Assembly: GCF_027594865.1 (NCBI RefSeq) | Contig: NZ_CP089391.1 | Coordinates: 6,168,501-6,232,500, forward strand | Reading direction: 5' to 3' | DNA: 64,000 bases | Origin: Bradyrhizobium xenonodulans | Lineage (GTDB): Bacteria > Pseudomonadota > Alphaproteobacteria > Rhizobiales > Xanthobacteraceae | Part shown: positions 16,913 to 34,969 of the stretch, one piece after another | How positions within the stretch are numbered: the first letter of the stretch is position 1 | Layout: each line of letters begins with the position of its first letter | Made by a program: the position numbers and the translations under genes | Notes under the pieces: generated by a model | Databases searched by the model: none | Told to the model about the DNA's origin: nothing | Seen by the model: only the letters and a program-made list of their open reading frames with translations

Positions 16913-18715
16913 CTACTTCGACCGCTGCACCGCCGGCTTCTCACTCTCCTGCCTTGCCGCGGAGAGATTGTGGGCGGTGTTGATCAGCGCGATGTGGGTC
17001 AGCGCCTGCGGGAAATTGCCGGTCTGGCGCCGGGCGTTTGAATCATACTCCTCGGCCAGCAGCCCGACGTCGTTCGCGACGCCGACCACGCGATCCAGCA
17101 GGACTTGCGCCTTGTCGAGATCACCCGACAGCACATAGGCATCAGCCAGCCACAGGCTGCAGGCCAGGAACGCGCCTTCGAGCGGCGGCTGTCCTGCAGG
17201 CAACTCGCGCGGATCGTGCCGCAGCACGAAACCGTCGCGCACCAGGCATTTCTCGACCGCCGCGATGGTGCCGCGGATGCGCGGGTCCGACGGCGGCAGG
17301 AAGCCGACGGCGGGCAGCAGCAGCACGCTCGCATCGAGCAGCTTCGAGCCGTAGGACTCGACGAAGGCATTTTCCTCCGCGTCAAAGCCGTTGTTGCAGA
17401 CGTCGCGATGAATCGCCTCGCGCAGAGCGTGCCAATGCAAGAGCGGCGCCTTGAAGCCAAAGGTCTCGGCGCTCTTGATGCCGCGGTCGAACGCGACCCA
17501 GGTCATGACCTTGGAGAAGACGTAGTGCTTCGGCTGCCCACGCCGCTCCCAGATGCCGTGATCGGGCTGGTCCCAGACCTCGGCGAGATGGTTGAGCACG
17601 GCGCATTCCAGCGACCATGTCGTCTCATCGTCGAGCTTGAGCTTGGCCATGCGCGACTGGTGGAAGGCGTCGATCAACTCGCCATAGACGTCGAGCTGGA
17701 GCTGCGCATGCGCAGCGTTGCCGATTCGCACCGGCTGCGAGCCCTCATAGCCGTCGAGCCAGCCCGCCTCCCATTCCAGGAGGCGCCGCTGGCCCCAGAT
17801 ACCATACATGATCTGCATGTTGGCGGGCGAGCCGGCCGCCGCGCGCAGCAGCCAATTGTGCCAGGCCGAGGCTTCCTCGGTATAGCCCGAGTTCATCAGC
17901 GCCAGCAGCGTGAAAGTGGCATCGCGCAGCCAGCAGAAGCGGTAGTCCCAGTTCCTGCCGCCGCCGAGCTTCTCCGGCAGCGAGGTGGTCGGCGCGGCGA
18001 CAATGCCGCCGGTCGGGCCGAAGGTCAGCGCCTTCAGCGTGATCAGCGAGCGCATGATGAGATCGTGATAGTCCCCGTCGCGGGTGCATTGGCCGCACCA
18101 GTCCTGCCAGAATTTCTCGGTCTCCTCGAGCGCGATCTCCGGATCGATCGGCCCGGGCGGCTCGAGATGCGAGGGGCCGTAGGTCAGGACGAAGGGCACG
18201 GTCTCGCCGGCCTTGACCTCGAAGTCCGACACCGTGGTCAGATCCTCGCCGCGGGTCTCGACCGGCGTGCGCAGCACGGTCATGTCCTGGCCGGCGATGG
18301 CCATCAGGGAATGGTCGATCCGCCGCACCCAGGGAATGTCGGCGCCGAAACCGAAGCGGATGACGAGCTCCATCCGCATCTTCACCGCACCGCTGACGCC
18401 GCGCACCAGCCGCACGATGTCCGAGGCCTTGCCGCGCGGCGGCATGAAGTCGATCAGCGCGACGGTGCCGCTCTTCGTCTCGAAGCGCGTTTCGAGGATG
18501 AGGGTGTCGCCGAGATAGCGGCGCGACGTTTTTGTGACGTCCTCGCCCGGTGCGATCAGCCAGCGGCCGTTCCTGTGCGTGCCGAGGATCGCGGCAAAGC
18601 AGGCGTCGGAATCGAAGGCCGGCCAGCACAGCCAGTCGATCGAGCCGTTGCGCCCGACCAGCGCCGCGGTCTCGCAGTCGCCGATCAACGCATAGTCCTC
18701 GATCCTCTGAGACAA
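16913..18715 (-). CDS. Glycoside hydrolase family 15 protein (glucoamylase-like)
   Basis: A protein of about 600 residues. N-terminal segment IEDYALIGDCETAALVGRNG then SIDWLCWPAFDSDACFAAIL is typical of bacterial GH15. The (alpha/alpha)6 catalytic domain holds GGGRNWDYRFCWLRDATFTL, DHGIWERRG (catalytic acid region) and PLEGAFLACSLWLAD (second Glu). Family members hydrolyse alpha-glucans from the non-reducing end or hydrolyse trehalose, so both are possible here. The start is uncertain: a TTG at 18715 gives MSQRIEDY..., while a TTG overlapping the malQ stop (18763) would add 16 residues. It lies directly downstream of malQ and is presumably co-transcribed. Confidence 0.88.
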   Translation of the reverse strand: MSQRIEDYALIGDCETAALVGRNGSIDWLCWPAFDSDACFAAILGTHRNGRWLIAPGEDVTKTSRRYLGDTLILETRFETKSGTVALIDFMPPRGKASDIVRLVRGVSGAVKMRMELVIRFGFGADIPWVRRIDHSLMAIAGQDMTVLRTPVETRGEDLTTVSDFEVKAGETVPFVLTYGPSHLEPPGPIDPEIALEETEKFWQDWCGQCTRDGDYHDLIMRSLITLKALTFGPTGGIVAAPTTSLPEKLGGGRNWDYRFCWLRDATFTLLALMNSGYTEEASAWHNWLLRAAAGSPANMQIMYGIWGQRRLLEWEAGWLDGYEGSQPVRIGNAAHAQLQLDVYGELIDAFHQSRMAKLKLDDETTWSLECAVLNHLAEVWDQPDHGIWERRGQPKHYVFSKVMTWVAFDRGIKSAETFGFKAPLLHWHALREAIHRDVCNNGFDAEENAFVESYGSKLLDASVLLLPAVGFLPPSDPRIRGTIAAVEKCLVRDGFVLRHDPRELPAGQPPLEGAFLACSLWLADAYVLSGDLDKAQVLLDRVVGVANDVGLLAEEYDSNARRQTGNFPQALTHIALINTAHNLSAARQESEKPAVQRSK

Positions 18716-18759
18716 TGTCGTGCGAGCCTTCGGAAATCGCCCCTGGATATCCCGGCCGA

Positions 18760-20739
18760 TCAACTCCCGCCGGTCAACGAACGTTCCCGCGTCGCGGCCT
18801 TCAAAGCCGCGAGATCGACCTTCGAGGCAATCTTGTCGAGCGCAACAGGCAGGCGCTGGCGCCAGTTCGGATGCTCGTCGATCGTGCCGGGAATGTTGGG
18901 CTGGTCGATCACGCCGAGCAGATCCTCCAGCGATATCGCCAGAAGCCGCGACGGCGTGCGCGACAGGAAGGCGAGCACCGAATAGAGATCGTTGGCCTTG
19001 ATGCCGTTCTGGTGCAGAATCTCGTCGAGCGCACCGAGCGCATCCCAGCGCGCCTGGTCGTCCTCGCCGGGATCGAGCCCGAGCGAGCGCTTCATCTTGA
19101 GATCGCCGAAGGAGCGCCAGCCGGCATAGGTGCACAGATCATGCGTGTTCAGCGTCACCAGCGCATTGGGACGGTAATGGTCGGTGTTGCGGAAATGGCC
19201 GGCCTCGTCGCGCTCGAACATCATGACGAGATAGGACCAGATGCCGAAATCCTGCATCATCTCGCGGAAGCCTTCTGGCACGGTGCCGAGGTCCTCGCCG
19301 ATGACGATGCACTTGTGGGCGGCGCTCTCGCGCACCACGGCGCCAAGCAGCGCCTCGAATGGCATCTGCACATAGGCGCCGTTGTCAGGCTTGAAGCCGC
19401 GCGGCACCAGATAAAGGCGCTTCAAGCCCAGCACGTGGTCGAGCCGGATGGCGCCGGCATGGCGCATCGAGGCCGCTAGCATGTCCGCGAACGGCACGAA
19501 GGACTGCGCTTCGAGGCCGCCGGAATTGAAGCCGGCAAGACCCCAGTCCTGTCCGATGGTGTTGAGCACGTCTGGCGGCGCGCCGACGGCGAGCTCGCGC
19601 GAGATCGCCGTCTGCTCGTTCCATGCATCGAAGCCGTTGGATTGCACGCCGACGGCGACATCGAGATAAAGCCCGACCCGCATGCCGAGCTGGCCGGCCA
19701 GCTCCTTGGCCGCATGCAATTGCGAATCAGCCGTCCACTGCACGAATTCGACGAACTCGACCTCGCGCTTGTCGGGCCCGTTGCGCAGCTCGGCGCATTT
19801 GGCCTCATCCGGCCGCTGCCATTCCTGCGGCCACTCCCACCACGGCCCGTTGAAGCGATGGCGCAGCGCTTCGAAGCAGGCAAAGCGGGACAATAGCGGC
19901 GCGCGGTCGGCGCGAAAGGCGTCGAACTGATTGCGGCGGACACCGCTCGCGCTCGTCATGAAGCTGTTGAAGGCGGCGCGCAGGGCCAGCCATTTCAACG
20001 CCGCCATGTCGGCATAGGGGACGCGGTCGCCTTCCCGCAGCCGCGCGGCGGTCGCAGCCGCGTCGGGGACGAGGTCGGGGGAAAATTCCGGGATCGCCTC
20101 GACGTCGATATAGAGCGGGTTGAGGAACAGCCGGCTGTTCGGCGAATAGGGGCTGCAATCGGCCGGATGGTCGTCGAACAGGACGTGGAGCGGATTGAGC
20201 CCGACACCATCGGCGCCGAGTTGCTTGGCGAGCCGGACGAGACCTGCGAGGTCGGTGAAATCGCCGATGCCCCAGTTGCGGTCGGAGCGGACGCTGTAGA
20301 GCTGCACGGCGAGCAGCCAGCCGCGGTCGAAATCGCCGCCGAAGGCGCGCTCGGGCGCCACGATCATCGGCACCTCTTCGCTCACGCCTCCGGCATCGGT
20401 CAGCGACAACCGGTGATAGCCGAGCGGCAGGCCGTCGGGCCAGGCGATGACGGGCTCGCGCGTCTCGCCTTGCGCGATCACATTGGGTTTGCCGTTGGCC
20501 TGGTCACTGCCGGTGATCTTCCATTTGAGCGGCGGCGCGCCCATGGCCGCCAATTCCGTGCGCGGATGTCCCAGGGCGCGAACCACCACGGGCCCGCCGA
20601 CGAAGCGATAAACCCGCTTCTCCGGCAGGGCGTCGAGGATGGATTTGAGCGCTTCGGGCGCGGTGACCCGCAGCTTTCCGAGCGCATCGACGAATTCAGA
20701 CTGAACGCCCTTGATCCGGGCTTGAGCTAAAAGATCCAT
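18760..20739 (-). CDS. malQ: 4-alpha-glucanotransferase (amylomaltase)
   Basis: A 659-residue GH77 enzyme transferring alpha-1,4-glucan segments between maltodextrins and glucose. Catalytic motifs are intact: nucleophile AIRLDHVLGLKRLYLVP, acid/base VIGEDLGTVPEGFREMM, and stabiliser LNTHDLCTYAGW. Substrate region GIGDFTDLAGLVRLAKQLGA matches the family. The N-terminal extension of about 150 residues is usual for the longer proteobacterial MalQ type. It is divergent from the GlgE-like gene across a 204-base region with symmetric promoter-like elements, and is followed by the GH15 gene. Confidence 0.95.
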   Translation of the reverse strand: MDLLAQARIKGVQSEFVDALGKLRVTAPEALKSILDALPEKRVYRFVGGPVVVRALGHPRTELAAMGAPPLKWKITGSDQANGKPNVIAQGETREPVIAWPDGLPLGYHRLSLTDAGGVSEEVPMIVAPERAFGGDFDRGWLLAVQLYSVRSDRNWGIGDFTDLAGLVRLAKQLGADGVGLNPLHVLFDDHPADCSPYSPNSRLFLNPLYIDVEAIPEFSPDLVPDAAATAARLREGDRVPYADMAALKWLALRAAFNSFMTSASGVRRNQFDAFRADRAPLLSRFACFEALRHRFNGPWWEWPQEWQRPDEAKCAELRNGPDKREVEFVEFVQWTADSQLHAAKELAGQLGMRVGLYLDVAVGVQSNGFDAWNEQTAISRELAVGAPPDVLNTIGQDWGLAGFNSGGLEAQSFVPFADMLAASMRHAGAIRLDHVLGLKRLYLVPRGFKPDNGAYVQMPFEALLGAVVRESAAHKCIVIGEDLGTVPEGFREMMQDFGIWSYLVMMFERDEAGHFRNTDHYRPNALVTLNTHDLCTYAGWRSFGDLKMKRSLGLDPGEDDQARWDALGALDEILHQNGIKANDLYSVLAFLSRTPSRLLAISLEDLLGVIDQPNIPGTIDEHPNWRQRLPVALDKIASKVDLAALKAATRERSLTGGS

Positions 20740-20816
20740 TCGGCACGCAGCTTGCAGGCCATAGTTTGGCCGGGGGCATCGATTTTAACGAGGCGGAGGA
20801 AGACGTTAGTCAGGCT

Positions 20817-20943: not shown

Positions 20944-22902
20944 GTGAACAAGACAATTCAAACTGTCGAGAGTGCCGCAGCCGGCAGCGCTTTCCTCATC
21001 GAAGACGTCTATCCGTTGGTCGATGGCGGCCGCTTCGCCGTGAAGCGAATCGCGGGCGAGCGGGTCGAGGTCTGGGCCGACATCTATCGCGACGGCGACG
21101 CCGTCGTCAGTGCCGCGCTGATCTGGCGCCGCGAGCAGGACCGGGAATGGCGGAGCGAGCCGATGATCCCTCACGGCAATGACCGCTGGTCCGGCGTGTT
21201 CACACCCGTCGAGCCCGGCCCATATGTCTATGCCATCGAAGCCTGGACCGACGAATTCGCCACCTGGTCCCACGGTGTCGCGCGAAAACAGCGCCTCGGC
21301 GCCGATGTCAGTCTCGATGCCGTCGAGGGCGCCGGCCTCCTGACCAAGGCGCATGGCGCGCGGCAGGACGCCGCGGCGCTCATCATCAGGCAGTGCGAGG
21401 GTTATCTTCAGACCGGCGACGTCACCCCTCTGCTTGCAACCGAGCTCGGCGAGGCCATGGCCCAGAGCCAGCCGCGGCCTGATCTGACCCGCTCGCCGAA
21501 TTTCCCGCTGATCGTCGATCGCGACAAGGCACGCTTCGGCGCCTGGTATCAGATGATGCCGCGCAGCCAGAGCCAGGACTTCAGCGGAGGCGCCGGCCGG
21601 CATGGCACGCTCCGCGACTGCATCGCGCGCGTCCCCGACATCGCCGCGATGGGCTTCGACGTGCTCTATTTCACGCCGATCCACCCGATCGGCCACACAA
21701 GCCGCAAGGGCCGCAACAATGCGCCGGTGGCAACCGCTGGCGAGCCCGGCTCGCCCTATGCGATCGGCTCGGCCGAGGGCGGGCACGATGCGCTGCATCC
21801 CGAGCTCGGCACCATCGAGGATTTCCGCGCGCTGGTCGCGACCTGTCTCGAATACGGCCTCGAGCTTGCGCTCGACTTTGCCGTGCAATGCTCGCCGGAC
21901 CATCCCTGGCTGACGCAGCACCCGGAATGGTTCAAATGGCGGCCGGACCGTTCGGTGCGGACGGCGGATAGCCCCTATTCGGATATCGTCATCCCCGATT
22001 TCGCCTCCGTCGACCGGAGCGGGCTGTGGAATGCCTTCCGAGATGCGATGCTGTTCTGGATCGACCAGGGCGTCACCATCTTCGCCATCGACAACCACGA
22101 CACCGCACCGCTTGCCTTCTGGGAGTGGCTGATCAGCGACATCCGCCGCCGGCATCCCCAGGTGATCCTGTTTTCCAAGACGTTTGCGAGGCCAAAGCTG
22201 ATGAAGGGCCTCGCCAAGCTCGGCTTTGCGCAATCCTTCACTTATTTCCCCTGGCGCACGGCGAAGTGGGAGCTGGAGCAATATCTGGGCGAGCTGACGC
22301 GCTATCCCGAACGCGACTTCTATCGGCCGAACCTGTTCGTGAGCACGCCGGACCTGCTGCCCTATCATCTCCAGAGCGGCGAACCCTGGGCATTCAAGTC
22401 GCGCGTGGCACTGGCGGCGACGCTGTCCGGCAGCTTCGGAATCTACAGCGGCTTCGAGTTGCTGGAGCATCAAGCCGTGCCCGGCCGCGAAGAATATCTC
22501 GATTCCGAAAAGTACGAGATCAAGCAGCGCGACTGGAACAAGCCCGGCAACATCAAGCCCTACATCGCCGCGCTCAATCGCATCCGCAACGGCAATCCGG
22601 CGCTTCGGCAGACGGCAAACCTCCGCTTCCTCGGCATCGAGGACGGCGAGACGATTGCCTTCGCCAAGGAGGCGGCCGATCCCGCGAGCACGATCATCGC
22701 GGTCATCGCGCTGTCGCGCCGTGCGCGCGAATCCTGGTTGCCGCTCGGCGACTTCACCATCGATGCCGGTGGCGAACGCCGCCACGTCACCGCACTCGAA
22801 AATCTCCTCACCGGCGAACAGTCCCGCATCGAATGGGGCGGGATCAAATTGCGTATCGATCCCGACCGTGATCCGGCGCTGCTGTTCCGCTGCCTGGCGT
22901 AA
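20944..22902 (+). CDS. GlgE-like maltosyltransferase-family protein with altered active site
   Basis: A protein of about 652 residues aligned over its length to GlgE (maltose-1-phosphate:alpha-1,4-glucan maltosyltransferase, GH13_3). It has the N-terminal DUF3416-type domain, ARFGAWYQMMPRS, PIHPIGHTSRKGRNNAPVA and GSPYAIGSAEGGH. The nucleophile Asp (D383 in FAIDNHDTAP) and third Asp (D470 in STPDLL) are present. However, the acid/base Glu is a Lys (K412 in LFSKTFARP; family AEAFTRP), the near-invariant Arg two residues before the nucleophile is Ala381, and the family loop NPPKKYQD reads TADSPYSD. The protein is otherwise intact and therefore probably folded but not a standard GlgE. GTG 20944 is chosen because an upstream in-frame start would place the promoter elements inside the gene. 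It lies 12 bases before treS-mak. Confidence 0.85.
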   Translation: MNKTIQTVESAAAGSAFLIEDVYPLVDGGRFAVKRIAGERVEVWADIYRDGDAVVSAALIWRREQDREWRSEPMIPHGNDRWSGVFTPVEPGPYVYAIEAWTDEFATWSHGVARKQRLGADVSLDAVEGAGLLTKAHGARQDAAALIIRQCEGYLQTGDVTPLLATELGEAMAQSQPRPDLTRSPNFPLIVDRDKARFGAWYQMMPRSQSQDFSGGAGRHGTLRDCIARVPDIAAMGFDVLYFTPIHPIGHTSRKGRNNAPVATAGEPGSPYAIGSAEGGHDALHPELGTIEDFRALVATCLEYGLELALDFAVQCSPDHPWLTQHPEWFKWRPDRSVRTADSPYSDIVIPDFASVDRSGLWNAFRDAMLFWIDQGVTIFAIDNHDTAPLAFWEWLISDIRRRHPQVILFSKTFARPKLMKGLAKLGFAQSFTYFPWRTAKWELEQYLGELTRYPERDFYRPNLFVSTPDLLPYHLQSGEPWAFKSRVALAATLSGSFGIYSGFELLEHQAVPGREEYLDSEKYEIKQRDWNKPGNIKPYIAALNRIRNGNPALRQTANLRFLGIEDGETIAFAKEAADPASTIIAVIALSRRARESWLPLGDFTIDAGGERRHVTALENLLTGEQSRIEWGGIKLRIDPDRDPALLFRCLA

Positions 22903-22914
22903 GAGGCGCACGCC

Positions 22915-25900
22915 ATGAACGTTTTGTCTTCCGTCGACACCAAGAAGGCCGAGGCTGCCGAGATCGTGGATGAGCTCTGGTACAAGGACGCCATCATCTA
23001 CCAGCTCCACGTCAAGGCGTTTGCCGACAGCAACCAGGACGGCATCGGCGACTTCGCCGGGCTGACCGAGAAGCTGCCCTATCTGCAGGAGCTCGGCGTC
23101 ACCGCGCTGTGGCTGCTGCCGTTCTATCCCTCGCCCGGCCGCGACGACGGCTACGACATCGCCGACTACGGCTCGGTCAATCCCGATTTCGGGACGATGA
23201 AGGATTTCAAGCGCTTCATCCAGGAAGCGCAGAAGCGCGGCCTGCGCGTCATCACCGAGCTCGTCGTCAACCACACCTCCGACCAGCACAATTGGTTCAA
23301 GCGCGCGCGCCGCAGCCCGGCGGGCTCGAGCGCCCGCAACTGGTATGTCTGGAGCGACACCGACCAGAAATACCAGGGCACGCGCATCATCTTCACCGAC
23401 ACGGAGAAGTCGAACTGGACCTGGGATCACGAGGCCGGCGCGTTCTACTGGCACCGCTTCTTCTCGCACCAGCCGGATCTGAATTTCGATAATCCGCGCG
23501 TCGTCAGCGCGCTGATCCAGGTGATGAAGCGCTGGCTCGATGCCGGCGTCGACGGCTTCCGCCTGGACGCCATTCCCTATCTCTGCGAACGCGACGGCAC
23601 CAACAACGAGAACCTCCCCGAGACGCATGCCATCATCAAGCGGCTGCGCCAGGAGCTGGATTCCTACTCCAAGGGCAAGCTGCTGCTGGCCGAGGCCAAT
23701 CAATGGCCGGAGGACGTGCAGGAATATTTCGGCCGCGGCGACGAATGCCACATGGCCTACCACTTCCCGCTGATGCCGCGCATCTACATGGCGATCGCGC
23801 AGGAGGACCGCTTCCCGATCACCGACATCCTGCGCCAGACGCCGGACATCCCGGCGAGCTGCCAATGGGCGCTGTTCCTGCGCAACCATGACGAGCTGAC
23901 GCTGGAGATGGTCACCGACGTCGAGCGCGACTATCTCTGGACCACCTACGCCAACGATCCACGCGCCCGCATCAATGTCGGCATCCGCCGGCGCCTTGCG
24001 CCGCTGATGGACAATGACCGCCGCAAGATCGAGCTGATGAACTCGCTGCTGCTGTCGTTCCCGGGCACGCCGATCATCTATTACGGCGACGAGATCGGGA
24101 TGGGCGACAACATCTATCTCGGCGACCGCAACGGCGTGCGCACGCCGATGCAGTGGAGCCCGGACCGCAATGGCGGCTTCTCGCGCTGCGACCCCGCCCG
24201 CCTCTACGCGCCGCTGATCATGGATCCCGTCTACGGCTATGAGTCCGTGAACGTGGAGGCGCAGTCGCGCAGCCTGTCCTCGTTGCTCAGCGCCACCAAG
24301 CGGCTGATCTCGGTGCGCAAGTCGACGCTCGCCTTCGGCCGCGGCACCATGACCTTTATCCGCCCGGCCAACCGCGCCGTGCTGGCCTATGTCCGGCAGT
24401 ACCGCGACGAGGTGATCCTCTGCGTCGCCAACCTCTCGCGCGCCGCGCAGGCGACCGAGCTCGACCTGTCGCCCTGGAAGGACCGCATCCCGCAGGAAAT
24501 GCTCGGCCGCACGCGCTTCCCTCCGATCGGCGAACTGCCATACATGGTCACGCTGGGGCCATACGGCTTCTACTGGTTCCAGCTTCAGGAGCGCGACAAG
24601 TCCGAGCCGGTGACGCCGCGCGCGGTGCCGGAGTTCGAGACCCTGGTGGTGCCGGTGAACTCGAACTGGGTGTCGCTCGCCCGCGAGCGCGGCGTGTTCG
24701 AGCGCGACGTGCTGCCGGGCTTCCTGTCGCGGACACGCTGGTATCCCGAGCACAATCCCAAGCATATCAAGGCCACGCTGACCTCGGCGGTACCTTTCAG
24801 CGACATCGGCGACAACAGGCCGTGGATCGCGTTCTTCGAGGCGGCGCAGGATGACGTCACGACGCGCTATGTGCTGCCGATGCAGATCGAGTGGGTGCGC
24901 TTCGACCGCGAACGCTTCAACCCGAAGGCGCTTGCCGCCGTGCGCCAGGGCGCGCGCGAGGGCACGCTGCTCGACGTCGCGACCGAGCAGATCTTCATCG
25001 GGCTTTTCTTGCGGGGTCTGTCGCAAAACCTGGTGGTGGAAGAAAATAACTTGCGCCTGGAGTTCAAGGCCACCAGCCGGTTTGCCGATCACATCGTCAA
25101 GGAGCCCGAACGCATCCGCGCGATCGAGCAGTCGAACAGCACCGCGCTGGTCGACAACCAGTATGTCGCGAAGATCTATCGCCGGCTCGAACGCGGCATC
25201 AGTCCCGAGATCGAGATCGGAGCCTACCTCACCGAAATCGCCTGCTTCGCCAACACACCGGCGCTGCTCGGCAGCGTCGCGCTGGTCGAAGGCGATAGAA
25301 GCAGCGCTCTCGGCGTACTGCACGCCTATGTCGAGAACCAGGGCGACGGCTGGGCCGTGACCACGGGCTATCTCGACCGCTACATCGACGAGCAGCGGGT
25401 GCTGCCGCCGGGCGAGAGGCTTCGCGAGACCCAGGAGCAGGCGCCCTATCTGCACTTCATGGCGCAGACCGGCCGGCGGCTTGCCGAGCTGCACGTCGCT
25501 CTCGCCGCCGCAAAGCCCGACAATCTCGCCCCGGAACCGATCGGCCCCGCACATGTCGAGCGCTGGACATCCGACCTCAGGGCACGGGCCGGACGGATAT
25601 TGGAACGGCTGGCCGACATCCGCGAGGGCCTGCGCGAGAGCGACCGTCTTCTGGTCGACCAGCTCGCCGCGGTGCGCGCGACCCTGTCCGACCATCTGAA
25701 TGCACTCTTGCCATCCGACATCGGCGGGTTGAACATCCGTCATCATGGCGACTTCCGCCTTGGGCAAACTCTGATCGTGAAGGACGACATCTTCATCATC
25801 GACTTGGACGGTGATCCGCGTCTGCCGCTGGCCGACAAGCGGCGCAAGCTGCCTGCCGCGCGCGACGTCGCGGGCCTGATCCGCTCGATCGATCTTTCGG

Positions 25901-26208
25901 TCAACGCCGCGCTCAGCCGCGCATTCACCGGCGCATCCGACGAACAGGACCGGCTCGCGACCGCACTCGGCGAATGGCGCGAGCGCGCCACCGCGACATT
26001 CCTCAACGCCTACCGCGACGCCATGACCGATCGCCGGCTGTGGCCGGAAGACCGGCGGCACGCGGAAGGCCTGTTAAGGTTTTTCCTGCTTGATCATGCC
26101 TTCGACGAAGTAGAGTACGAGCTGTCCCACCGGCCTGAGGGGCTCCATGCGCCGCTGACCGGACTGCTTCGCATTCTGTCCAGTGCCGGGAGCGAAGCCC
26201 ATGCCTAA
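22915..26208 (+). CDS. treS: Maltose alpha-D-glucosyltransferase (trehalose synthase) fused to maltokinase
   Basis: A 1097-residue two-part enzyme. Residues 1 to about 560 are TreS (GH13): [20 protein letters not shown], nucleophile [13 protein letters not shown], acid/base [17 protein letters not shown], third Asp [13 protein letters not shown]. About 580-1097 is maltokinase (Mak/Pep2), with the aminoglycoside-kinase-like catalytic motif [10 protein letters not shown] and the metal motif [20 protein letters not shown]. Together they convert trehalose to maltose and then ATP-dependently to maltose-1-phosphate, the donor for GlgE. All catalytic residues are intact, unlike the upstream GlgE-like gene. 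It overlaps glgB by 8 bases. Confidence 0.96.
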
Positions 26209-28348
26209 ATTGCCAGCCGAGGCCTACGCCATCATCGAGGGCCGTCACTCCGACCCCTTCCATTATCTCGGACTGCATCCGGAGGGCGGCAAGAGCGTGG
26301 TCCGCGCCTTTCTGCCCGAGGCGTCCAACGTCGAGGCGGTGGGCGAACATGGCGAGGTCGCAAAGCTCGACCGCGTCCACGATTCCGGCCTGTTCATCGG
26401 CGCCCTGCCCAACGGCTCGAAGCACTACCAGCTGCGCGCGAAGTTCGGGAACGACGTCGTCGAGTTCGAGGACGCCTATCGTTTTCCGCCGATCCTGACC
26501 GATTTCGATCTTTATCTGCTCGGCGAGGGTACCCACCAGCGCCTCTATGACAAGCTCGGCGCGCATCCGATGCGGCTCGAGGGCATCGACGGCATCGGAT
26601 TCGTCGTGCTGGCGCCGAATGCGCGGCGCGTGTCCGTGGTCGGCGATTTCAATTTCTGGGATGGGCGGCGCCATCCCATGCGGGTGCGCGGTGGTGGCTA
26701 TTGGGAATTGTTCATCCCGCATGCCAAGGCCGGCAATCACTACAAGTTCGAGATCATCGGCCCGCATGGCCATCTGCTTCCGCTGAAGTCAGATCCGATG
26801 GCGTTTGCGAGCGAAGTGCGCCCGAAGACGGCCTCCATCGTGTTCGACGAGGCACATCTGCCGCGTCCGCGACCGGCGCCTGACGGCATCAACGCGCTGT
26901 CGGCGCCGATGTCGATCTACGAGGTCCATCTCGGCTCGTGGCGGCGCAAGAACGGCGACGAATGGCTCACCTATCGCGAGCTGGCCGAGCAATTGCCGGC
27001 CTATGCCCGCGACATGGGCTTCACCCATCTCGAATTCCTGCCCGTCAGCGAGCATCCGTTCGACGGCTCCTGGGGCTATCAGCCGACCGGCCTCTATGCG
27101 CCGACCAGCCGCTTCGGCACGCCGGAGGATTTTGCCGCGTTGGTCGATGCCTGCCATCGCGAGGGCGTCGGCGTGCTGCTCGACTGGGTGCCCGGCCATT
27201 TCCCGGACGATCCGCACGGGCTCGGCAGCTTCGACGGCACCTCGCTCTACGAGCACGCCAACCCGCTCCAGGGCCGCCATCTCGACTGGGGCACGCTGAT
27301 CTACAATTACGGCCGCACCGAAGTGACGAACTTCCTGGTATCGAACGCGCTGTTCTGGCTGGAGCGTTACGCGATCGACGGCCTGCGCGTCGATGCGGTC
27401 GCGTCCATGCTCTATCTCGACTACAGCCGCCCGCCCGGCGCCTGGATTCCGAACCAGTATGGCGGCCGCGAGAACATCGAGGCGATCAACTTCCTGCGCC
27501 GCTTCAACACCGAGCTGTTCGCGCGCTTCCCGCAGGCGACCACGGCCGCCGAGGAATCCACCGCTTGGCCGCAGGTCTCGCGCCCGGTCGAATTCGGCGG
27601 GCTCGGCTTCGGCTACAAGTGGAACATGGGCTGGATGCACGACACGCTGAACTACATCAGCAAGGATCCGATCCACCGCAAGCATCATCACGGCGAGATC
27701 CTGTTCGGCCTGCACTACGCATTCTCGGAAAACTTCATCCTGCCGCTGTCGCATGACGAGGTCGTGCACGGCAAACGTTCGATCCTCGGCCGCATGCCCG
27801 GCGACGAATGGCAGCGCTTTGCGAATCTGCGCGCCTATTACAGCTTCATGTTCGGCCATCCCGGCAAGAAGCTGCTGTTCATGGGCGCGGAGATCGCGCA
27901 GAGCCGCGAATGGAATCACGACCAGTCGCTCGACTGGCACCTGCTCGAATACAAGTACCATTCCGGCATCCAGGCGCTGATCCGCGATCTCAACCGGCTC
28001 TACCGTGCGGTGCCGGCGCTGCACCAGATGGATTGCGAGCAGGCCGGCTTCGAATGGGTGATCACGGACGATGCCAACCGCAACGTGTTCGCCTGGCTGC
28101 GCAAGGGATTTGACGAACACGCGCGCTGTCTCGTGATCATCAACTTCTCACCCAACGTCTATCGCAACTACCGCGTTCGCGTGCCCTTCGCCGGCAAGTG
28201 GAAAGAGGTGTTCAACTCGGACTCCGCCCATTATGGCGGCACCAATGTCGGGAACATCGGCGAGGTTCATGCCGTTGACGGCAAGACGCCCGAGCTCCGT
28301 CTCACCATTCCGCCGCTCGCCGCGATCTTCCTCGTTCCGGAAAGCTGA
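26201..28348 (+). CDS. glgB: 1,4-alpha-glucan branching enzyme
   Basis: A 715-residue enzyme that introduces alpha-1,6 branches into glycogen. The N-terminal CBM48-like modules (YHYLG-type segment [33 protein letters not shown]) precede the GH13 domain: [14 protein letters not shown], nucleophile [18 protein letters not shown], acid/base [11 protein letters not shown], and [16 protein letters not shown]. Standard length. The ATG at 26201 is inside the end of treS-mak and is preceded by GGGAG at about 8 bases, which is better than the start 18 bases earlier. It is followed by glgX after 3 bases. Confidence 0.96.
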
Positions 28349-28351
28349 CCG

Positions 28352-30430
28352 ATGCGCCTCACTGTTGGATCGCCCGCACGCCTCGGTGCAAGCTGGGACG
28401 GACGCGGCACCAATTTCGCGTTGTTCTCGGCCAACGCGCAGAAGGTCGAGCTCTGCCTGTTCGACACGCAGGGACGCCGCGAGCTCGAGCGCATCGAGCT
28501 GCCTGAAAGAACCGAGGACGTCTGGCACGGCTATCTCAACGACGTCTCGCCGGGCCAGCTTTACGGCTATCGCGTGCACGGCCCCTATGAGCCCGAGCAA
28601 GGCCACCGCTTCAACGCCAACAAGCTGGTGCTCGACCCCTATGCCAAGCGGCTTGCCGGGCGGCTGGTCTGGAGCGATGCGCATTTCGCCTATCGCACCG
28701 GAAGCGCGCGCGAGGATCTGTCGTTCGACCGGCGCGACAACGCGCGCGGCATGCCCAAGGCCGTCGTCGTCGACGAGACCTTCAACTGGGGCCGCCGCGA
28801 GATCCGGCCTAACATCCCGTGGGAAGACACCATCATCTACGAAGCCCACGTCAAGGGCCTGACCCAGAAGCGCGACGACGTGCCGCCGAATCTGCGCGGC
28901 ACCTATGGCGGGCTGTCGTCGCCGGCGATCATCGAGCATCTGAGGAAGCTCGGCGTCACCACCGTGGAGCTGCTGCCGATCCACAGCTTCGTCGACGACC
29001 GCATCCTGGTCGAGAAGAAGCTCGCCAATTACTGGGGCTACAACACGCTGTCCTTCTTCGCGCCGGAGCAGCGCTACGCCCAGGACAATGCGCTCGATTC
29101 CTTCCGCACCACGGTGGCGCGGCTACACGATGCCGGCATCGAGGTGATGCTCGACGTCGTCTACAACCACACCGCCGAGGGCAATCATCTCGGCCCGACG
29201 CTGTGTTACCGCGGCATCGACAACGCCTCCTATTACTGGCTGAACCGCGAGAACCCGCGCTATTACGACGACTTCACCGGCTGCGGCTCCTCGGTGAACC
29301 TCACCCATCCGCGCGTCCTCCAGATGGTGATGGATTCCTTGCGCTACTGGGTCGAGGTCTGCCATGTCGACGGCTTCCGCTTCGACCTCGCCACCACGCT
29401 GGCGCGCGGGCCGAACGGCTTTGATCGCGGCATCTCGTTCCTGACCGCGATCCGGCAGGATCCGGTGCTGGCGAGCGTCAAGCTCGTCGCCGAGCCCTGG
29501 GATCTCGGCCTCGGCGGCTATCAGGTCGGCGCATTCCCCTCGCAATGGTCGGAGTGGAACGACCGCTATCGCAGCGCCATGCGCCGCTACTGGAGCGGCG
29601 AAGGCAGCCTGATCGGCGACATCTCCAGCCGCATGACGGCCTCCTCCGACCTGTTCAACCATGACGGACGGCGGCCGCGCGCCAGCATCAACCACATCAC
29701 CGTGCATGACGGCTTCACGCTCGCCGACCTCTTCAGCTACAACGAGAAGCACAACGAGGCCAATGGCGAGGACAATCGCGACGGCTCCAGCGACAACCAC
29801 AGCAACAATTGCGGTGTCGAGGGTCCGACCGACGATCCCCAAATCATCGGCCTGCGCCGGCAGCTTCGCAAGAACGTGCTGGCCTGCCTGATGCTCGCGC
29901 AGGGCATTCCGCTGATCCTCGCCGGCGACGAGGTCGGCAATTCGCAATCCGGCAACAACAACGCCTATTGCCAGGACAACGAGGTCGGCTGGGTCGGCTG
30001 GGACAATCTCGGCAAGGAGGGCGACGACATGAGCGATTTCGTCGCCGGTCTCGCCGACATCCGCCGGCGGTTCTCGCAGCTTCGCAGCCATCGCTGGCTC
30101 GACGGCCGCCCCAAAGACGGCCTCTCCTACGGCGCGCTGTGGCTGACGCCCGCGGGCGACGAGATGACGGAGAGCGACTGGAATTTCCCGGAAGGGCGGT
30201 TCCTTTCCTATGTGATGGGACCCATGGAACCGGGACGCGCTGCGATCTTTATCGTACTGAACGCCGCCCCCGAAGAGATCGCATTCAAATTGCCCAAAAT
30301 GACCGAATACAAGAGCTGGCAGCAGATCCTGAACACGACGGATGCCATGCTGAACAGCGTTGATTTCCTGCCCGGAAGCGACAGCAAGGCGCCGCCGCGC
30401 TCCGTGCTCGCCTTCGCGGGGGCGCTATGA
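28352..30430 (+). CDS. glgX: Glycogen debranching enzyme
   Basis: A 692-residue isoamylase-type enzyme hydrolysing alpha-1,6 branches of limit dextrins. N-terminal CBM48 segment GRGTNFALFSANAQKVELCL, then IYEAHVKGLTQKRDD, the nucleophile CHVDGFRFDLATTLAR, acid/base VAEPWDLGLGGYQVG and third Asp TVHDGFTLADLFSYNEKHN. The sequence is complete. It overlaps treZ by four bases (ATGA). In the TreX-TreY-TreZ arrangement, GlgX supplies linear maltodextrins to TreY, so its placement between glgB and treZ fits a glycogen-to-trehalose route. Confidence 0.95.
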   Translation: MRLTVGSPARLGASWDGRGTNFALFSANAQKVELCLFDTQGRRELERIELPERTEDVWHGYLNDVSPGQLYGYRVHGPYEPEQGHRFNANKLVLDPYAKRLAGRLVWSDAHFAYRTGSAREDLSFDRRDNARGMPKAVVVDETFNWGRREIRPNIPWEDTIIYEAHVKGLTQKRDDVPPNLRGTYGGLSSPAIIEHLRKLGVTTVELLPIHSFVDDRILVEKKLANYWGYNTLSFFAPEQRYAQDNALDSFRTTVARLHDAGIEVMLDVVYNHTAEGNHLGPTLCYRGIDNASYYWLNRENPRYYDDFTGCGSSVNLTHPRVLQMVMDSLRYWVEVCHVDGFRFDLATTLARGPNGFDRGISFLTAIRQDPVLASVKLVAEPWDLGLGGYQVGAFPSQWSEWNDRYRSAMRRYWSGEGSLIGDISSRMTASSDLFNHDGRRPRASINHITVHDGFTLADLFSYNEKHNEANGEDNRDGSSDNHSNNCGVEGPTDDPQIIGLRRQLRKNVLACLMLAQGIPLILAGDEVGNSQSGNNNAYCQDNEVGWVGWDNLGKEGDDMSDFVAGLADIRRRFSQLRSHRWLDGRPKDGLSYGALWLTPAGDEMTESDWNFPEGRFLSYVMGPMEPGRAAIFIVLNAAPEEIAFKLPKMTEYKSWQQILNTTDAMLNSVDFLPGSDSKAPPRSVLAFAGAL

Positions 30431-32181
30431 GGCCATCCTTCGGGGCGAGGCCGACCAAGGACGGCGTGTCGTTCCGGCTGTGGGCGCCCGGTGCGCGCCG
30501 TGTCGATCTCCTGCTCGACAGACGGCATGCAATGCAGCGCCGGCAGGATGGCTGGTATGTCGCCGAGATTGCCGCCCTGCCCGTCGGCAGCAATTACAAG
30601 TTCAGGGTTGACGACGCGATCGACGTGCCCGATCCGGCCTCGGCCTTCCAGCCCGACGACGTGTTCGGCCCGAGCGAGGTGATCGATCACGATGCCTTCG
30701 CGTGGCGCGCGCGGGACTGGCGCGGTCGTCCCTGGGAAGAGACGGTGCTGATCGAAACCCATGTCGGCACCTTCACCGCTGAGGGCACCTACCGCGCCAT
30801 GATCGACAAGCTCGATCACCTCGCCGCCACCGGCATCACCGCGCTGGAATTGATGCCGCTGGCCGATTTCGCCGGCCGCCGCGGCTGGGGCTATGACGGC
30901 GTGCTCTGGTACGCGCCCGACAGCGCCTATGGCCGGCCCGAAGACCTGAAGACGCTGATCGACGAGGCGCATCTGCGCGGGCTGATGGTCTTCCTCGACG
31001 TCGTCTACAATCATTTCGGCCCGGAGGGGAATTACCTCGGCCGCTATGCGCCGACCTTCTTCACCGACGCCCACACGCCTTGGGGGAGCGCGATCGACTA
31101 TCGCGTGCCGCAGGTCCGCGCCTTCGCGGTCGAGAACGCGCTGTCATGGCTGACCGACTATCGCTTCGACGGTTTGAGGCTGGATGCAGCCAACCACATC
31201 ATGGCGATCCCCGGCGAGCAATCGATGCTGCAGGACCTCAGTGTCGCCGCCGGCGAGCTTGCCAAGGCCACGGGCCGGCACATCCATCTGGTGCTGGAGA
31301 ACGGCGACAACCGCGCCAGCCTGCTCGATGCCGCGCAGGAGACGCCGAACGGCAAATATCGCGCACAGTGGAACGACGACTATCACCACGTCTGGCACGT
31401 GATGCTGACCGGCGAGCTCGCCGGCTATTACGCCGACTACCAGACGCCGCGCATGGACCTTGCGCGTGCGCTCGCCTCAGGCTTCGTCTATCAGGGCGAG
31501 GTCTCGGAATTCTGGGGCAAGAAGCCGCGCGGCGAGCCGAGCGGCGAGCTGCCGCCTGCGACCTTCGTCAACTTCCTGCAAAATCACGACCAGATCGGCA
31601 ATCGCCCGCTCGGCGACCGGCTCGAGAGCCTGGCATCGCGCAAGCAGATCGAGGCCGCACTCGCCGTCACCCTGCTGGCGCCGATGGTGCCGATGCTGTT
31701 TCAGGGCGAGGAATGGGGCTCGACGGCACCATTCCCGTTCTTCTGTGATTTCCAGGGCGGCCTTGCCGATGCCGTGCGCAAGGGCCGCAAGCAGGAATAT
31801 GCCTGGGCCTACGAGACATACGGCGACGAGGTGCCCGATCCGCTCGATCCGGCCACGATGCAATCGGCCGTGCTCGACTGGACCGGCCGCACGCCGGAGC
31901 AGGATGCGCGGCTCGAACTGGTACGGGAGCTGCTCACGCTCCGCAGCAAAGAGATTGCGCCACGATTGAAGCACGCGAAGTTCGGCGACGCCATTGCGGC
32001 CGATAACGGGCTGCTCACCGCATATTGGCGCATGGGCCACGGCGCGACGCTGCGCCTGACCGCCAATCTCTCCGACGAGGACATTGCAGCTCCCGGCGAC
32101 GCTACGGGCACGCCTATCTGGGGCGAGACCAGCGGCGACCGGCTCGCACCGTGGTCGGTGATCTGGCATCTCGGAGGTTAA
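30427..32181 (+). CDS. treZ: Malto-oligosyltrehalose trehalohydrolase
   Basis: A 584-residue GH13 enzyme that releases trehalose from malto-oligosyltrehalose. The N-terminal domain begins FGARPTKDGVSFRLWAPGA. Catalytic motifs are YRFDGLRLDAANHI (nucleophile), HLVLENGDNRASLL (acid/base) and QNHDQIGNRPLGDRL (third Asp). Family marker FQGEEWGSTAPFPFFCDF is present. It overlaps glgX by four bases and is followed one base later by treY, so it is tightly coupled. Normal length. Confidence 0.95.
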   Translation: MRPSFGARPTKDGVSFRLWAPGARRVDLLLDRRHAMQRRQDGWYVAEIAALPVGSNYKFRVDDAIDVPDPASAFQPDDVFGPSEVIDHDAFAWRARDWRGRPWEETVLIETHVGTFTAEGTYRAMIDKLDHLAATGITALELMPLADFAGRRGWGYDGVLWYAPDSAYGRPEDLKTLIDEAHLRGLMVFLDVVYNHFGPEGNYLGRYAPTFFTDAHTPWGSAIDYRVPQVRAFAVENALSWLTDYRFDGLRLDAANHIMAIPGEQSMLQDLSVAAGELAKATGRHIHLVLENGDNRASLLDAAQETPNGKYRAQWNDDYHHVWHVMLTGELAGYYADYQTPRMDLARALASGFVYQGEVSEFWGKKPRGEPSGELPPATFVNFLQNHDQIGNRPLGDRLESLASRKQIEAALAVTLLAPMVPMLFQGEEWGSTAPFPFFCDFQGGLADAVRKGRKQEYAWAYETYGDEVPDPLDPATMQSAVLDWTGRTPEQDARLELVRELLTLRSKEIAPRLKHAKFGDAIAADNGLLTAYWRMGHGATLRLTANLSDEDIAAPGDATGTPIWGETSGDRLAPWSVIWHLGG

Positions 32182-32182
32182 C

Positions 32183-34969
32183 ATGCCTCCTGCCATTCCT
32201 CTTGCGACCTATCGGCTTCAGCTCACCGCGGATTTCGACTTCGACAAGGCCGCCGCGGTGGTGCCTTATCTGAAGGCGCTAGGGATCACGCATCTCTACG
32301 CCTCGCCGGTGATGAAGGCCCGCAAGGGCTCGACCCATGGCTACGACACCGTCGATCACAGCCAGTTCAATCCCGAGCTCGGCGGCGAGGCCGGCTTCGC
32401 AAGGCTGAGCGAGGCGCTGGTCAGGCACGGCCTCGGCCTCATCATCGACTTCGTGCCGAACCATGTCGGCGTGCATTTTGCCGACAATCCCTGGTGGCTC
32501 GACGTGCTGGAATGGGGCCAGGCCTCGCCGCATGCGGTATCCTTCGATATCGACTGGGATCAATTGGCCTATCGCGCGCGTGGCGGCGTGCTGCTGCCGA
32601 TCCTCGGCTCGTCCTACGGCGAGGCGCTGGAGCGCGGCGACATCGCGCTGCGCTACGATGTCGACGAGGGCAGCTTTTCAGCGTGGTATTTCGAGCATCG
32701 CCTGCCGATCGCGCCGGAGCGCTATGGCGAGCTGCTGCGCATGATCGTGAAGGAAGCGGACGCGAGCGAGACGGAAGCCGGCGAGCGCCTGCTGTCGCTC
32801 GCGGCGCGCTACACCGGGCTGCGCCGTCCCAACCGCAAGGAAGCGCCGGCCTTCAAGGCGGAGCTGAAGGAGATCGCAGGCGCTCCCGACATCATCGATC
32901 GCGGCCTCGCCGCCTATCGCGCCGCCAAGGATCGCCCGGCGCAGATACTGGCCTTGCATCATCTTCTGGAGCGCCAGCACTACAAGCTCGGGCACTGGCG
33001 GCTCGCCTCCAGCGACATCAACTATCGCCGCTTCTTCGACGTCAACGGGCTGGCGGGCCTGCGCGTCGAAGACCCCGGCACGTTCGCCGCGACGCACCGG
33101 CTGGTGAAGCAGCTCGTTGTCGACGGCAAGCTGCAAGGCATCCGCCTCGATCACATCGATGGCCTGCGCGATCCCGCGCAATATTGCCAGCGGCTCCGCC
33201 GGCTGGTGCGCGACGCGCAAGGCAACACAAAGCCGTTCTACACGGTGATCGAAAAAATCCTGTGCGAGCATGAGCGGCTGCCGCACTTCGCCGGCGTTCA
33301 GGGCACTACCGGCTATAAATGGATGAACGTCATCACGCAAGTTCTGGTCGACGCCAAGGGGCTGGAGGCGCTGAACGAGACCTGGCGGCAGATCAGCAAC
33401 CGGCCGCCCCGGCTTGCCCCTTACGTCAAGGAGGCCAAACGGCGCGTGCTGGAGACCTTGCTCACCAGCGAATTCACCGTGCTGACGCGCCTGCTCGCGC
33501 GGATCGCCAACGGCCATTACTCGACCCGCGACTTCTCCGCCGACAGCCTGCGGCAGGCGCTCGAGCTCTATGTGCTGCACTTCCCGGTCTATCGCACCTA
33601 TCTGACGCATAGCGGCCCGACCGCACTCGACCGCAAGCTGATCGACGACACCATCGCGCACGCCCGCGCCGAATGGTTCGCCGCGGACGAAGGCATTTTC
33701 GACTTCCTGCGCGATGCCCTGACCATGGACCTGCTCAAGCCCGGCCGTCCCCCGCACAGCGCCCCGCGCGTGCGCCGCTTCGCGCTGAAGGTGCAGCAAT
33801 TCACCGGCCCGGTGATGGCGAAGTCGCTGGAGGATACCGCGTTCTACCAGTTCCACCGGCTGCTCGCCCTGAACGAGGTCGGCGGCGATCCCGCCAGCAA
33901 TGGCCTCACGATTGCGGCTTTTCACGAAGCGATGAGGACCCGCGCCAAGGAGTGGCCGCTGGGGATGACGGCGACCGCCACCCACGACACCAAGCGCGGC
34001 GAGGACGCCCGCGCGCGGATCGCAGCGCTCAGCGAGATTCCCGGCGAATGGACCAGCACGGTTTCGCGCTGGAAGGTGCTGAACGCGTCGCACCTCGCGC
34101 TCAACGGCAATCTGCGCGCGCCATCGGCGACGTTCGAATACATGATCTACCAGACCCTGCTCGGCGCCTGGCCGCTCGACGGCACGGCCGATGCGGGCTT
34201 CGTCGAGCGCATCCAGGCCTATGCGCTCAAGGCGGCGCGTGAGGGCAAGGAGGAGACGAGCTGGCTCAATCCGCACGAGGCGTATGAGAACGGCGTCAAA
34301 AGTTTTATCGAGAAGATCCTCGACCCCGCGCAATCCGGCGAATTCCTGGAGGCGCTGCAAACCATCGCCCGCCGCGTCGCGCTGCTCGGTGCGTTGAATT
34401 CGCTGAGCCAGCTCACGCTCAAGGCGACGCTGCCCGGCGTGCCCGACTTCTACCAGGGCACAGAACATTGGGACCTGTCGCTGGTCGATCCGGACAATCG
34501 CCGCCCCGTGGATTTTGCCGCGCGCAGCACAGTGCTGGCGTCGCTGGAATCGCCGGATTGGCGTCACCTGATCAAGACCTGGCCTGACGGCCAGCTCAAG
34601 CTGGCCTGGACGCGGCATCTGCTCAAGTTGCGCAACGAGCTCGACGACGTCTTCGCGCAGGGCGACTATCAGCCGCTTCAGGTGCGCGGCGCACACGCCG
34701 ATCATGTCGTCGCCTTTGCCCGCCGTCACGGCCGCAGGGCGGCGATCGTCGTGGTCGGACGCCAGTTCGCGCCCTTTACGCAAGCCGGCCGGGAATGGCC
34801 GGTGCTCGAGGGTTTTGACGCGACCGTCGATATCGCCGGCCACACCGCACCGGACCTTGCGGGCAACGAATTGGCGCTCGCGCAGGCCTTTCGTGATTTT
34901 CCGGCTGCGGTCATCGAGGCGCGCGCAGCCAACGCCATCAGGCCTGCGCGGCAGCGCGCTCGCGCCTGA
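32183..34969 (+). CDS. treY: Malto-oligosyltrehalose synthase
   Basis: A 928-residue GH13 enzyme that isomerises the reducing-end alpha-1,4 linkage of maltodextrin to the alpha,alpha-1,1 linkage of trehalose. Markers are ATYRLQLTADFDFDKAAAVV at the N-terminus, SPVMKARKGSTHGYDTVDHS, nucleophile GIRLDHIDGLRDP, acid/base YTVIEKILCEHERLP, and the third Asp in TATHDTKRGEDARARI. Normal size for the family. It is the last gene of the plus-strand glucan/trehalose run and converges on the PHA-region gene three bases away. Confidence 0.95.
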   Translation: MPPAIPLATYRLQLTADFDFDKAAAVVPYLKALGITHLYASPVMKARKGSTHGYDTVDHSQFNPELGGEAGFARLSEALVRHGLGLIIDFVPNHVGVHFADNPWWLDVLEWGQASPHAVSFDIDWDQLAYRARGGVLLPILGSSYGEALERGDIALRYDVDEGSFSAWYFEHRLPIAPERYGELLRMIVKEADASETEAGERLLSLAARYTGLRRPNRKEAPAFKAELKEIAGAPDIIDRGLAAYRAAKDRPAQILALHHLLERQHYKLGHWRLASSDINYRRFFDVNGLAGLRVEDPGTFAATHRLVKQLVVDGKLQGIRLDHIDGLRDPAQYCQRLRRLVRDAQGNTKPFYTVIEKILCEHERLPHFAGVQGTTGYKWMNVITQVLVDAKGLEALNETWRQISNRPPRLAPYVKEAKRRVLETLLTSEFTVLTRLLARIANGHYSTRDFSADSLRQALELYVLHFPVYRTYLTHSGPTALDRKLIDDTIAHARAEWFAADEGIFDFLRDALTMDLLKPGRPPHSAPRVRRFALKVQQFTGPVMAKSLEDTAFYQFHRLLALNEVGGDPASNGLTIAAFHEAMRTRAKEWPLGMTATATHDTKRGEDARARIAALSEIPGEWTSTVSRWKVLNASHLALNGNLRAPSATFEYMIYQTLLGAWPLDGTADAGFVERIQAYALKAAREGKEETSWLNPHEAYENGVKSFIEKILDPAQSGEFLEALQTIARRVALLGALNSLSQLTLKATLPGVPDFYQGTEHWDLSLVDPDNRRPVDFAARSTVLASLESPDWRHLIKTWPDGQLKLAWTRHLLKLRNELDDVFAQGDYQPLQVRGAHADHVVAFARRHGRRAAIVVVGRQFAPFTQAGREWPVLEGFDATVDIAGHTAPDLAGNELALAQAFRDFPAAVIEARAANAIRPARQRARA

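Follow-up and report, generated by a model that had tools for sequence, protein, structure and literature searches.

An altered GlgE active site beside an altered maltokinase pocket in one Bradyrhizobium clade, and a proposed non-catalytic glucan-binding role for the GlgE-family protein

The closest described relative of the protein considered here is GlgE1 of Streptomyces coelicolor (PF11896; PDB 3zss), an alpha-1,4-glucan:maltose-1-phosphate (M1P) maltosyltransferase. According to the sections covered of the source papers, mutation of its residue E423 leads to loss of activity, the E423A and D394A variants bind malto-oligosaccharides in crystals (PMC5076824), and H397 gave the sole variant whose apparent kcat differed significantly in its study (PMC4526890/PMC5076824); loss of GlgE alone results in M1P toxicity in Mycobacterium tuberculosis (PMC4526890). 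The second point of comparison is the maltokinase Mak/Pep2 (4u94, 4o7o), also described in a TreS:Pep2 complex (PMC6509496, in part). In the mycobacterial enzyme His307 lines the maltose pocket, mutants of Y416, Y420 and K413 are practically inactive, and Phe at Tyr416 or Tyr420 is enough for a drastic loss of activity (PMC4306142, sections covered). Noncatalytic GH13 proteins of storage-glucan metabolism are already known from plants, where the isoamylase ISA2 is a noncatalytic paralogue selected in starch synthesis (PMC12510319, in part). For GlgE or Mak, we found no report of a pseudoenzyme in the literature searched, whose coverage excluded most subscription papers, and the word pseudoenzyme is absent from the covered part of a 2024 review (PMC11046441).

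The glgE locus and its neighborhood

Within a 64,000-nucleotide stretch of Bradyrhizobium xenonodulans DNA (the window), an unbroken forward-strand ORF beginning with GTG at 20944 encodes a 652-aa protein. An alternative in-frame TTG start lies upstream at 20752; the start at 20944 is favored because lengths of 648-652 aa predominate among the listed homologues (80 of 120). Residues 18-647 match S. coelicolor GlgE1 (phmmer against the PDB, E 2e-143), identity to solved GlgE being about 40%, and all the domains are present; PF11896 (GlgE_dom_N_S) is matched over residues 18-193 with 180.3 bits and PF00128 with 22.3 bits (cut-off 22). Modeling, which the original prediction had proposed, yields a predicted fold that is that of an intact GlgE; a first AF2 model from a shallow alignment (pLDDT 53.6) was left out of this reading. 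With the domain set, predicted fold and orthologous operon all present, the protein belongs to the GlgE family by descent, and the full-length alignment to GlgE and the intact frame claimed for it both stand. A second canonical glgE, a further check proposed at the outset, was looked for in the host genome and not found. In what follows, aligned proteins with Lys at position 412 are called K-type and those with Glu there E-type. The features of the locus are:

18760..20739, minus strand: malQ (4-alpha-glucanotransferase), divergent neighbor, present in 10/10 K-type and 9/10 E-type loci compared
20944..22902, plus strand: GlgE-family K-type protein, 652 aa, GTG start (PF11896 180 bits, homologue alignment); proposed non-catalytic maltosyl/alpha-glucan binder
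21961..21984, plus strand: remnant of the donor-phosphate loop, TADSPYSD, residues 340-347 (canonical YAENPPKKYED); K355 deleted, N352 changed, Y357 and D359 kept
22084..22107, plus strand: active-site motif A-I-D-N-H-D-T-A, residues 381-388; R392 to A381, P396 to H385, H397 to D386, K399 to A388, D383 kept
22177..22179, plus strand: codon AAG of K412, at the acid/base position E423 by alignment
22351..22353, plus strand: codon of D470 (D480 of GlgE1), kept in 75/75 K-type rows
22915..26208, plus strand: TreS-Mak fusion of 1097 aa, starting 12 nt downstream of glgE; the triad of TreS is intact and the maltose pocket of Mak lost
24625..26178, plus strand: Mak (maltokinase) domain, residues 571-1088 (TIGR02457); HGD and metal Asp kept, H307R, K413H, Y416D
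25756..25758, plus strand: codon of R948 in the Mak motif HGDFRLGQ, equivalent to His307 of M. vanbaalenii Mak
26095..26106, plus strand: Mak H1061 to D1064, whose ends correspond to Lys413 and Tyr416 of M. vanbaalenii Mak
26183..28348, plus strand: glgB, branching enzyme of the glgE operon
28352..30430, plus strand: glgX, debranching enzyme of the glgE operon
30427..32181, plus strand: treZ
32183..34969, plus strand: treY

The order malQ / glgE-treS-mak-glgB-glgX-treZ-treY recurs in 10/10 K-type and 9/10 E-type loci compared, with L098 differing, and an operon with TreS-Mak and GlgB is likewise shared with canonical GlgE. The original prediction held that the flanking GH13 genes, malQ among them, all keep their triads. 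This is so for TreS (74/74 K-type and 38/38 E-type rows) and, by motif strings that we take to mark the triads of GlgB, GlgX, MalQ, TreZ and TreY in the window, for GlgB, GlgX and MalQ; two of three such strings were recovered in TreZ, TreY was not resolved, and MalQ matches Glyco_hydro_77 instead of being a GH13 protein. A trehalase-like protein (window 16913-19135, minus strand; NF041084 376 bits, below the cut-off of 820) adjoins malQ, and the cluster therefore also holds a trehalose-degrading candidate. Elsewhere in the window, a bifunctional transaldolase/phosphoglucose isomerase gene (NF007080; 9402-12251, plus strand) is followed by one for phosphogluconate dehydrogenase (12265-13263). 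A scan with what we take to be the EcfG-type promoter consensus found no match near glgE; the whole window holds 2, where 1.54 would be expected. The EcfG stress regulator controls treS (blr6767) in B. diazoefficiens, where strains that lack treZY and treS behave like the wild type in symbiosis; TreS has been proposed to degrade trehalose in this species, according to a source cited by the same authors (PMC8092242, sections covered).

Active-site residues of GlgE and the maltokinase

With residue roles taken from the covered parts of PMC4526890 and PMC5076824, the phmmer alignment to GlgE1 sets D383 opposite the nucleophile D394, K412 opposite the acid/base E423, D470 opposite D480, A381 opposite R392, H385 opposite P396 and D386 opposite H397 (+1 residue). 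The alignment is gap-free around the nucleophile and acid/base sites, and no other Glu is aligned to the latter. Thus, the catalytic triad is incomplete, D383 and D470 being present and Lys412 replacing Glu. The NPPKKY loop carries a three-residue deletion, and among the phosphate ligands K355 is deleted and N352 substituted, with Y357 and N395 kept. The residue assignments of the original prediction, namely D383 as nucleophile, D470 as third acidic residue, K412 at the acid/base position, Ala381 in place of the GH13 Arg and a phosphate loop altered to TADSPYSD, are all upheld, and its question of whether another Glu might occupy the acid/base site is answered in the negative by the alignment. 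Retained in the window protein are the -2 subsite (K264, D359, K534, Y535), the -1 residues N395 and Q324, and the acceptor residues Y445, W448 and R449. It thus resembles GlgE1 in full-length homology, predicted fold, -2 subsite and W448; K-type proteins differ from canonical GlgE in lacking the acid/base Glu, R392, H397 and the phosphate-loop Lys, and in adjoining a maltokinase whose pocket is lost.

We aligned 120 rows (119 loci and the window), of which 75 have Lys, 44 Glu and one Gly (L195, E423G, counted in neither type). P396H and H397D each occur in 75/75 K-type rows, so that the new H385 and D386 are constant; R392 is Ala in 73/75, with one Thr and one Ser. R392, D394 and H397 are each present in 44/44 E-type rows, including L199 (542 aa, split in two pieces), which was kept for the GlgE counts. 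Each of K264, D359, N395, W448, D480, K534 and Y535 is kept in 75/75 K-type rows, Q324 in 74/75 and N268 in 72/75. The nucleophile D383 is kept in 72/75, with Val or Ala in the remaining three, and its position holds Ala or Gly in the database homologues P0022 and P0110. Changes in the acceptor site affect R449 (5/75), Y445 (2/75) and P428 (1/75). Two metagenome GlgE proteins (P0159, P0160) carry E423K alone in an otherwise canonical site and might be variants or sequence errors.

The kinase domain next door was expected, in the original prediction, to belong to a TreS-Mak feeding a GlgE, an expectation that probably fails, given the loss of its maltose-pocket residues. In the window Mak the pocket positions hold R948, H1061, D1064 and Y1068, of which only Y1068 (Tyr420) is kept; the ATP and metal residues K753 (K149), H944-D946 (HGD) and D963 (D322) are intact. 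This mapping derives from a distant alignment to the mycobacterial maltokinase (E ~1e-24), although the mapped residues are almost invariant among E-type loci. Left out of the TreS-Mak rows were L119 and L143 (broken or split) and L098, L185 and L196-L199 (short, cut off or unfused). His307 is Arg in 74/74 K-type rows, Tyr416 is replaced in 74/74 (by D, N, H, E, V or G), Lys413 is lost in 71/74 and Tyr420 kept in 70/74; seven different residues occur at position 413 and six at 416. K149, HGD, Q310 and D322 are kept in 74/74. On the E-type side, His307 is present in 37/38 rows (L194 has Asn) and Lys413, Tyr416 and Tyr420 in 38/38, His, Lys and Tyr being intact together in 37/38. A named-genome set of 80 loci, its genomes partly shared with the main alignment, gives R948 with a non-Tyr residue at 416 in 20/20 K-type loci and H, K, Y, Y in 57/57 readable E-type loci (of 60); B. 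erythrophlei GAS478 and Rhodopseudomonas palustris are examples of the canonical relatives in it. Lys413 was probably lost later, since 3 of the 20 named K-type loci (L268, L271, L277; 76-77% identity to the window) retain it. All these counts of joint GlgE and Mak loss represent one event on the tree, not 74 independent ones.

Like Mak/Pep2, the K-type domain is a homologous kinase with HGD, the metal Asp and a link to TreS; it differs in H307R, in having no Y416 and mostly no K413. No second intact Mak was found in the genome, where the other matches to the TreS-Mak query were its TreS part or short GH13 stretches. The M1P donor is probably not made, because Mak has lost pocket residues essential in the mycobacterial enzyme, and maltose is by the same residues probably no substrate of the K-type domain. 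It may nonetheless phosphorylate some other substrate, since the ATP Lys, HGD, Q310 and metal Asp are kept in 74/74 rows and Y420 in 70/74. Judged by these alignments, both M1P sites, that of GlgE and that of Mak, are changed beyond the tolerance of their homologues in the K-type clade, and the loss of the Mak maltose pocket in the same clade as the GlgE active site is what is new here.

Descent, selection and a second lineage

The possibility that the Lys is a one-off mutation of this strain, which the original prediction had set down as a check along with the conservation of both residues among orthologues, is rejected: Lys occupies the site in 119 of the best 120 homologues listed from the database, the exception, P0120, being canonical, and in 75 of the 120 aligned rows; P0012, recorded under the name B. 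japonicum, and P0093 and P0119, recorded as B. diazoefficiens, are among the database proteins, and 73 of the 75 rows also have the equivalent of A381. The 195 Bradyrhizobium genomes analyzed, a selection from a larger group, include 98 that have a GlgE with at least 75% identity, and all 97 that were read (35 K-type among 50 loci read first and the 75 K-type rows, overlapping; G072 was left unread) are K-type. Outside the genus no K-type protein was found, the best identity being 67% among 198 genomes and the 14 loci read, which make up 14 of the 44 E-type rows, being E-type. PF11896 is present in 157/195 genomes as a single match, save for two in G110, G127 and G152, and is weak in G146 and G167; therefore, the K-type gene stands in place of the canonical one. 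The GlgA family reaches its cut-off in 190/195 genomes, so that glycogen probably has another route; being nearly universal, GlgA presence was rejected as a discriminator of the two types. In a tree built without the trait columns the 75 K-type rows lie on one side of a branch with SH-aLRT 100, with a single E-type row (L120) adjoining it, and on this topology the K-type has one origin. Among loci at the margins, the K-type L119 (G078), in which both the glgE and treS-mak frames are broken, perhaps by sequence errors, was dropped from the aligned rows, its glgE having been read earlier as L051; L098 and L196-L199 are more distant E-type GlgE genes beside sequence matching only the Mak part of TreS-Mak.

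Selection was gauged by Nei-Gojobori medians over randomly drawn pairs (at most 600, dS 0.2-1.5), which share branches, for the K-type, a canonical Bradyrhizobium lineage (15 rows) and the B. pachyrhizi/jicamae lineage described below (10 rows, L195 excluded). In that order, dN/dS is 0.155 (595 pairs), 0.111 and 0.190 for GlgE; 0.116, 0.084 and 0.146 for its barrel; 0.207, 0.164 and 0.167 for Mak; and 0.041, 0.081 and 0.064 for TreS. K-type GlgE is thus somewhat relaxed relative to the canonical protein, and its catalytic residues have been lost clade-wide under purifying selection. For the TreS part (window 22915-24588), constraint is tighter among K-type genomes than among canonical ones. 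On a taxon subset with fixed topology, the K stem makes up 3.6% of the GlgE, 2.9% of the Mak and 1.5% of the TreS tree, and the stem of the second lineage 2.8%, 0.9% and 0.5%, respectively. Of 233 positions conserved in both groups (412 excluded as group-defining), 13 switched residue, and 9 of these 13, against 45 of the 233, are no more than 4 residues away from an active-site residue known from the literature (hypergeometric P 7e-5), a distance chosen afterwards; clustering is weaker at 6 residues (P 0.002) and absent at 0 (P 0.18). The pattern is one of sites around the active centre that changed in concert and were then conserved, and not of drift towards a pseudogene.

A second lineage, B. 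pachyrhizi/jicamae (11 rows: L094-L097, L124, L125, L191-L195; named from database matches to L096), shows damage of another kind. Its GlgE keeps R392, D394 and H397 in 11/11 rows and E423 in 10/11, with E423G in L195 and in 3/19 database proteins of the lineage. The NPPKKY loop has become HPPQRW-type, N352 and K355 being changed in 11/11 and Y357 being Trp in 10 and deleted in one. The maltose pocket of its Mak is intact in 10/11; its P-loop EQSN, kept in 28 other E-type rows, has become DQPH-type, with Ser136 changed in 11/11 and Asn137 in 10/11. In the M. tuberculosis maltokinase, mutation of the equivalent Asn inactivates the enzyme and that of the Ser drastically reduces its activity (PMC4306142, sections covered). 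As read from these residues, two lineages have each damaged the GlgE and the Mak of the M1P step, though not in the same way, and since the second one lost its phosphate ligands in both proteins independently of the K-type clade, the step was probably dismantled twice. The GlgE of this lineage might still disproportionate malto-oligosaccharides without M1P.

A probable retirement of the M1P step and its alternatives

We consider it fairly likely that the M1P step was retired in one Bradyrhizobium clade and that the K-type protein (GlgE-K) persists as a non-catalytic maltosyl or alpha-glucan binder. Briefly, we propose that in the common ancestor of the K-type clade the route that leads from trehalose through M1P to glycogen was shut down by changes in its proteins. 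To judge from mutants of homologues, loss of the Mak maltose pocket would mean that no M1P is made, and a GlgE without its acid/base residue, -1 subsite arginine, +1 histidine and phosphate loop would leave M1P unused; joint loss of the two functions would avoid the M1P poisoning seen on loss of GlgE alone. Both proteins persist full-length and conserved, as frames and selection indicate, and are presumably produced. TreS would then only interconvert trehalose and maltose, and Mak may be retained as a structural or ATP-binding domain. GlgE-K likely binds malto-oligosaccharide or glycogen chain ends, because the acceptor groove is largely kept, as are the -2 subsite and D480, and may do so without turnover, because GlgE crystals of E423A and D394A bind malto-oligosaccharides. 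It could serve as a glucan-binding or scaffolding subunit beside TreS, GlgB, GlgX and TreYZ; a role in organizing or regulating these neighboring trehalose and glycogen enzymes is speculative. ISA2 (PMC12510319, in part) offers a parallel as a storage-glucan GH13 protein fixed without catalytic residues lineage-wide and kept by selection; in contrast, it is a paralogue joining the active ISA1, whereas GlgE-K is the only GlgE copy, known here from sequence, and its pathway partner Mak has changed too.

An alternative that we think unlikely is that GlgE and Mak have been functionless since the ancestor and survive only through operon embedding or the TreS fusion. The variability of Mak positions 413 and 416, dN/dS values above canonical (0.155 vs 0.111; 0.207 vs 0.164), the loss of D383 in 3/75 rows, broken frames in two K-type genomes (both genes in L119, treS-mak in L143) and the ongoing erosion by E423G in the second lineage (L195 and 3/19 database proteins) would fit such a relic. 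However, glgE is a separate gene whose median dN/dS (0.155, 595 pairs) is far from 1, all 75 K-type rows encode 646-654 aa, H385 and D386 are new yet constant, and the maltosyl subsite is retained.

It is rather improbable that the K-type pocket (D383, N384, H385, D386, K412, D470) catalyzes another reaction, such as a hydrolysis or glucan transfer in which the leaving group is not phosphate, with Mak phosphorylating another sugar. The clustering of constant-but-different sites near the active centre, the retention of D383 (72/75) and of H385, D386 and D470 (75/75), the intact Mak ATP and metal residues and the fixed new R948 would suit it; yet the nucleophile position is Val or Ala in three rows and Ala or Gly in P0022 and P0110, the alignment places no carboxylate at the acid/base position, and seven and six residues at Mak 413 and 416 are unlike a defined new sugar pocket. 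That GlgE-K is a working maltosyltransferase, the alignment or residue roles being misleading, is most improbable despite about 40% identity to a solved GlgE, a full domain set and the kept equivalents of D394 and D480, given the gap-free alignment around both sites, the loss of S. coelicolor GlgE activity on E423 mutation (PMC5076824, in part), the absence of K355, R392 and H397, and the loss of the donor-making kinase pocket in the same genomes.

Of the roles that the original prediction had offered, a pseudoenzyme is well supported, because the assigned residues are upheld, an intact fold is predicted and the substitutions have become fixed in a clade under purifying selection; glucan binding appears the best reading of the retained residues, and an enzyme with a new mechanism is weakened by the replacement of D383 in 3/75 rows and in P0022 and P0110. 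More tentatively, and with doubt, a two-enzyme step may have been turned into a non-catalytic glucan-sensing or scaffolding module controlling trehalose-glycogen exchange, with a second lineage having independently disabled the same step.

The K-type clade includes soybean symbionts. Many of its proteins are named maltosyltransferases in public records, so that pathway predictions for the clade are likely wrong. A 2021 paper, in the part covered, makes a suggestion about the desiccation phenotype attributed to trehalose, and B. japonicum has been taken in the literature to have a complete glgE operon, on which an inference was built. The operon is complete by gene content, but that inference probably fails because both M1P-handling sites are changed in the K-type clade. 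The trehalose-to-glycogen pathway credited to K-type bacteria is probably off, with its parts reused, and the clade offers a natural experiment on the retirement of a pathway with a toxic intermediate, in which both ends change on the same branch.
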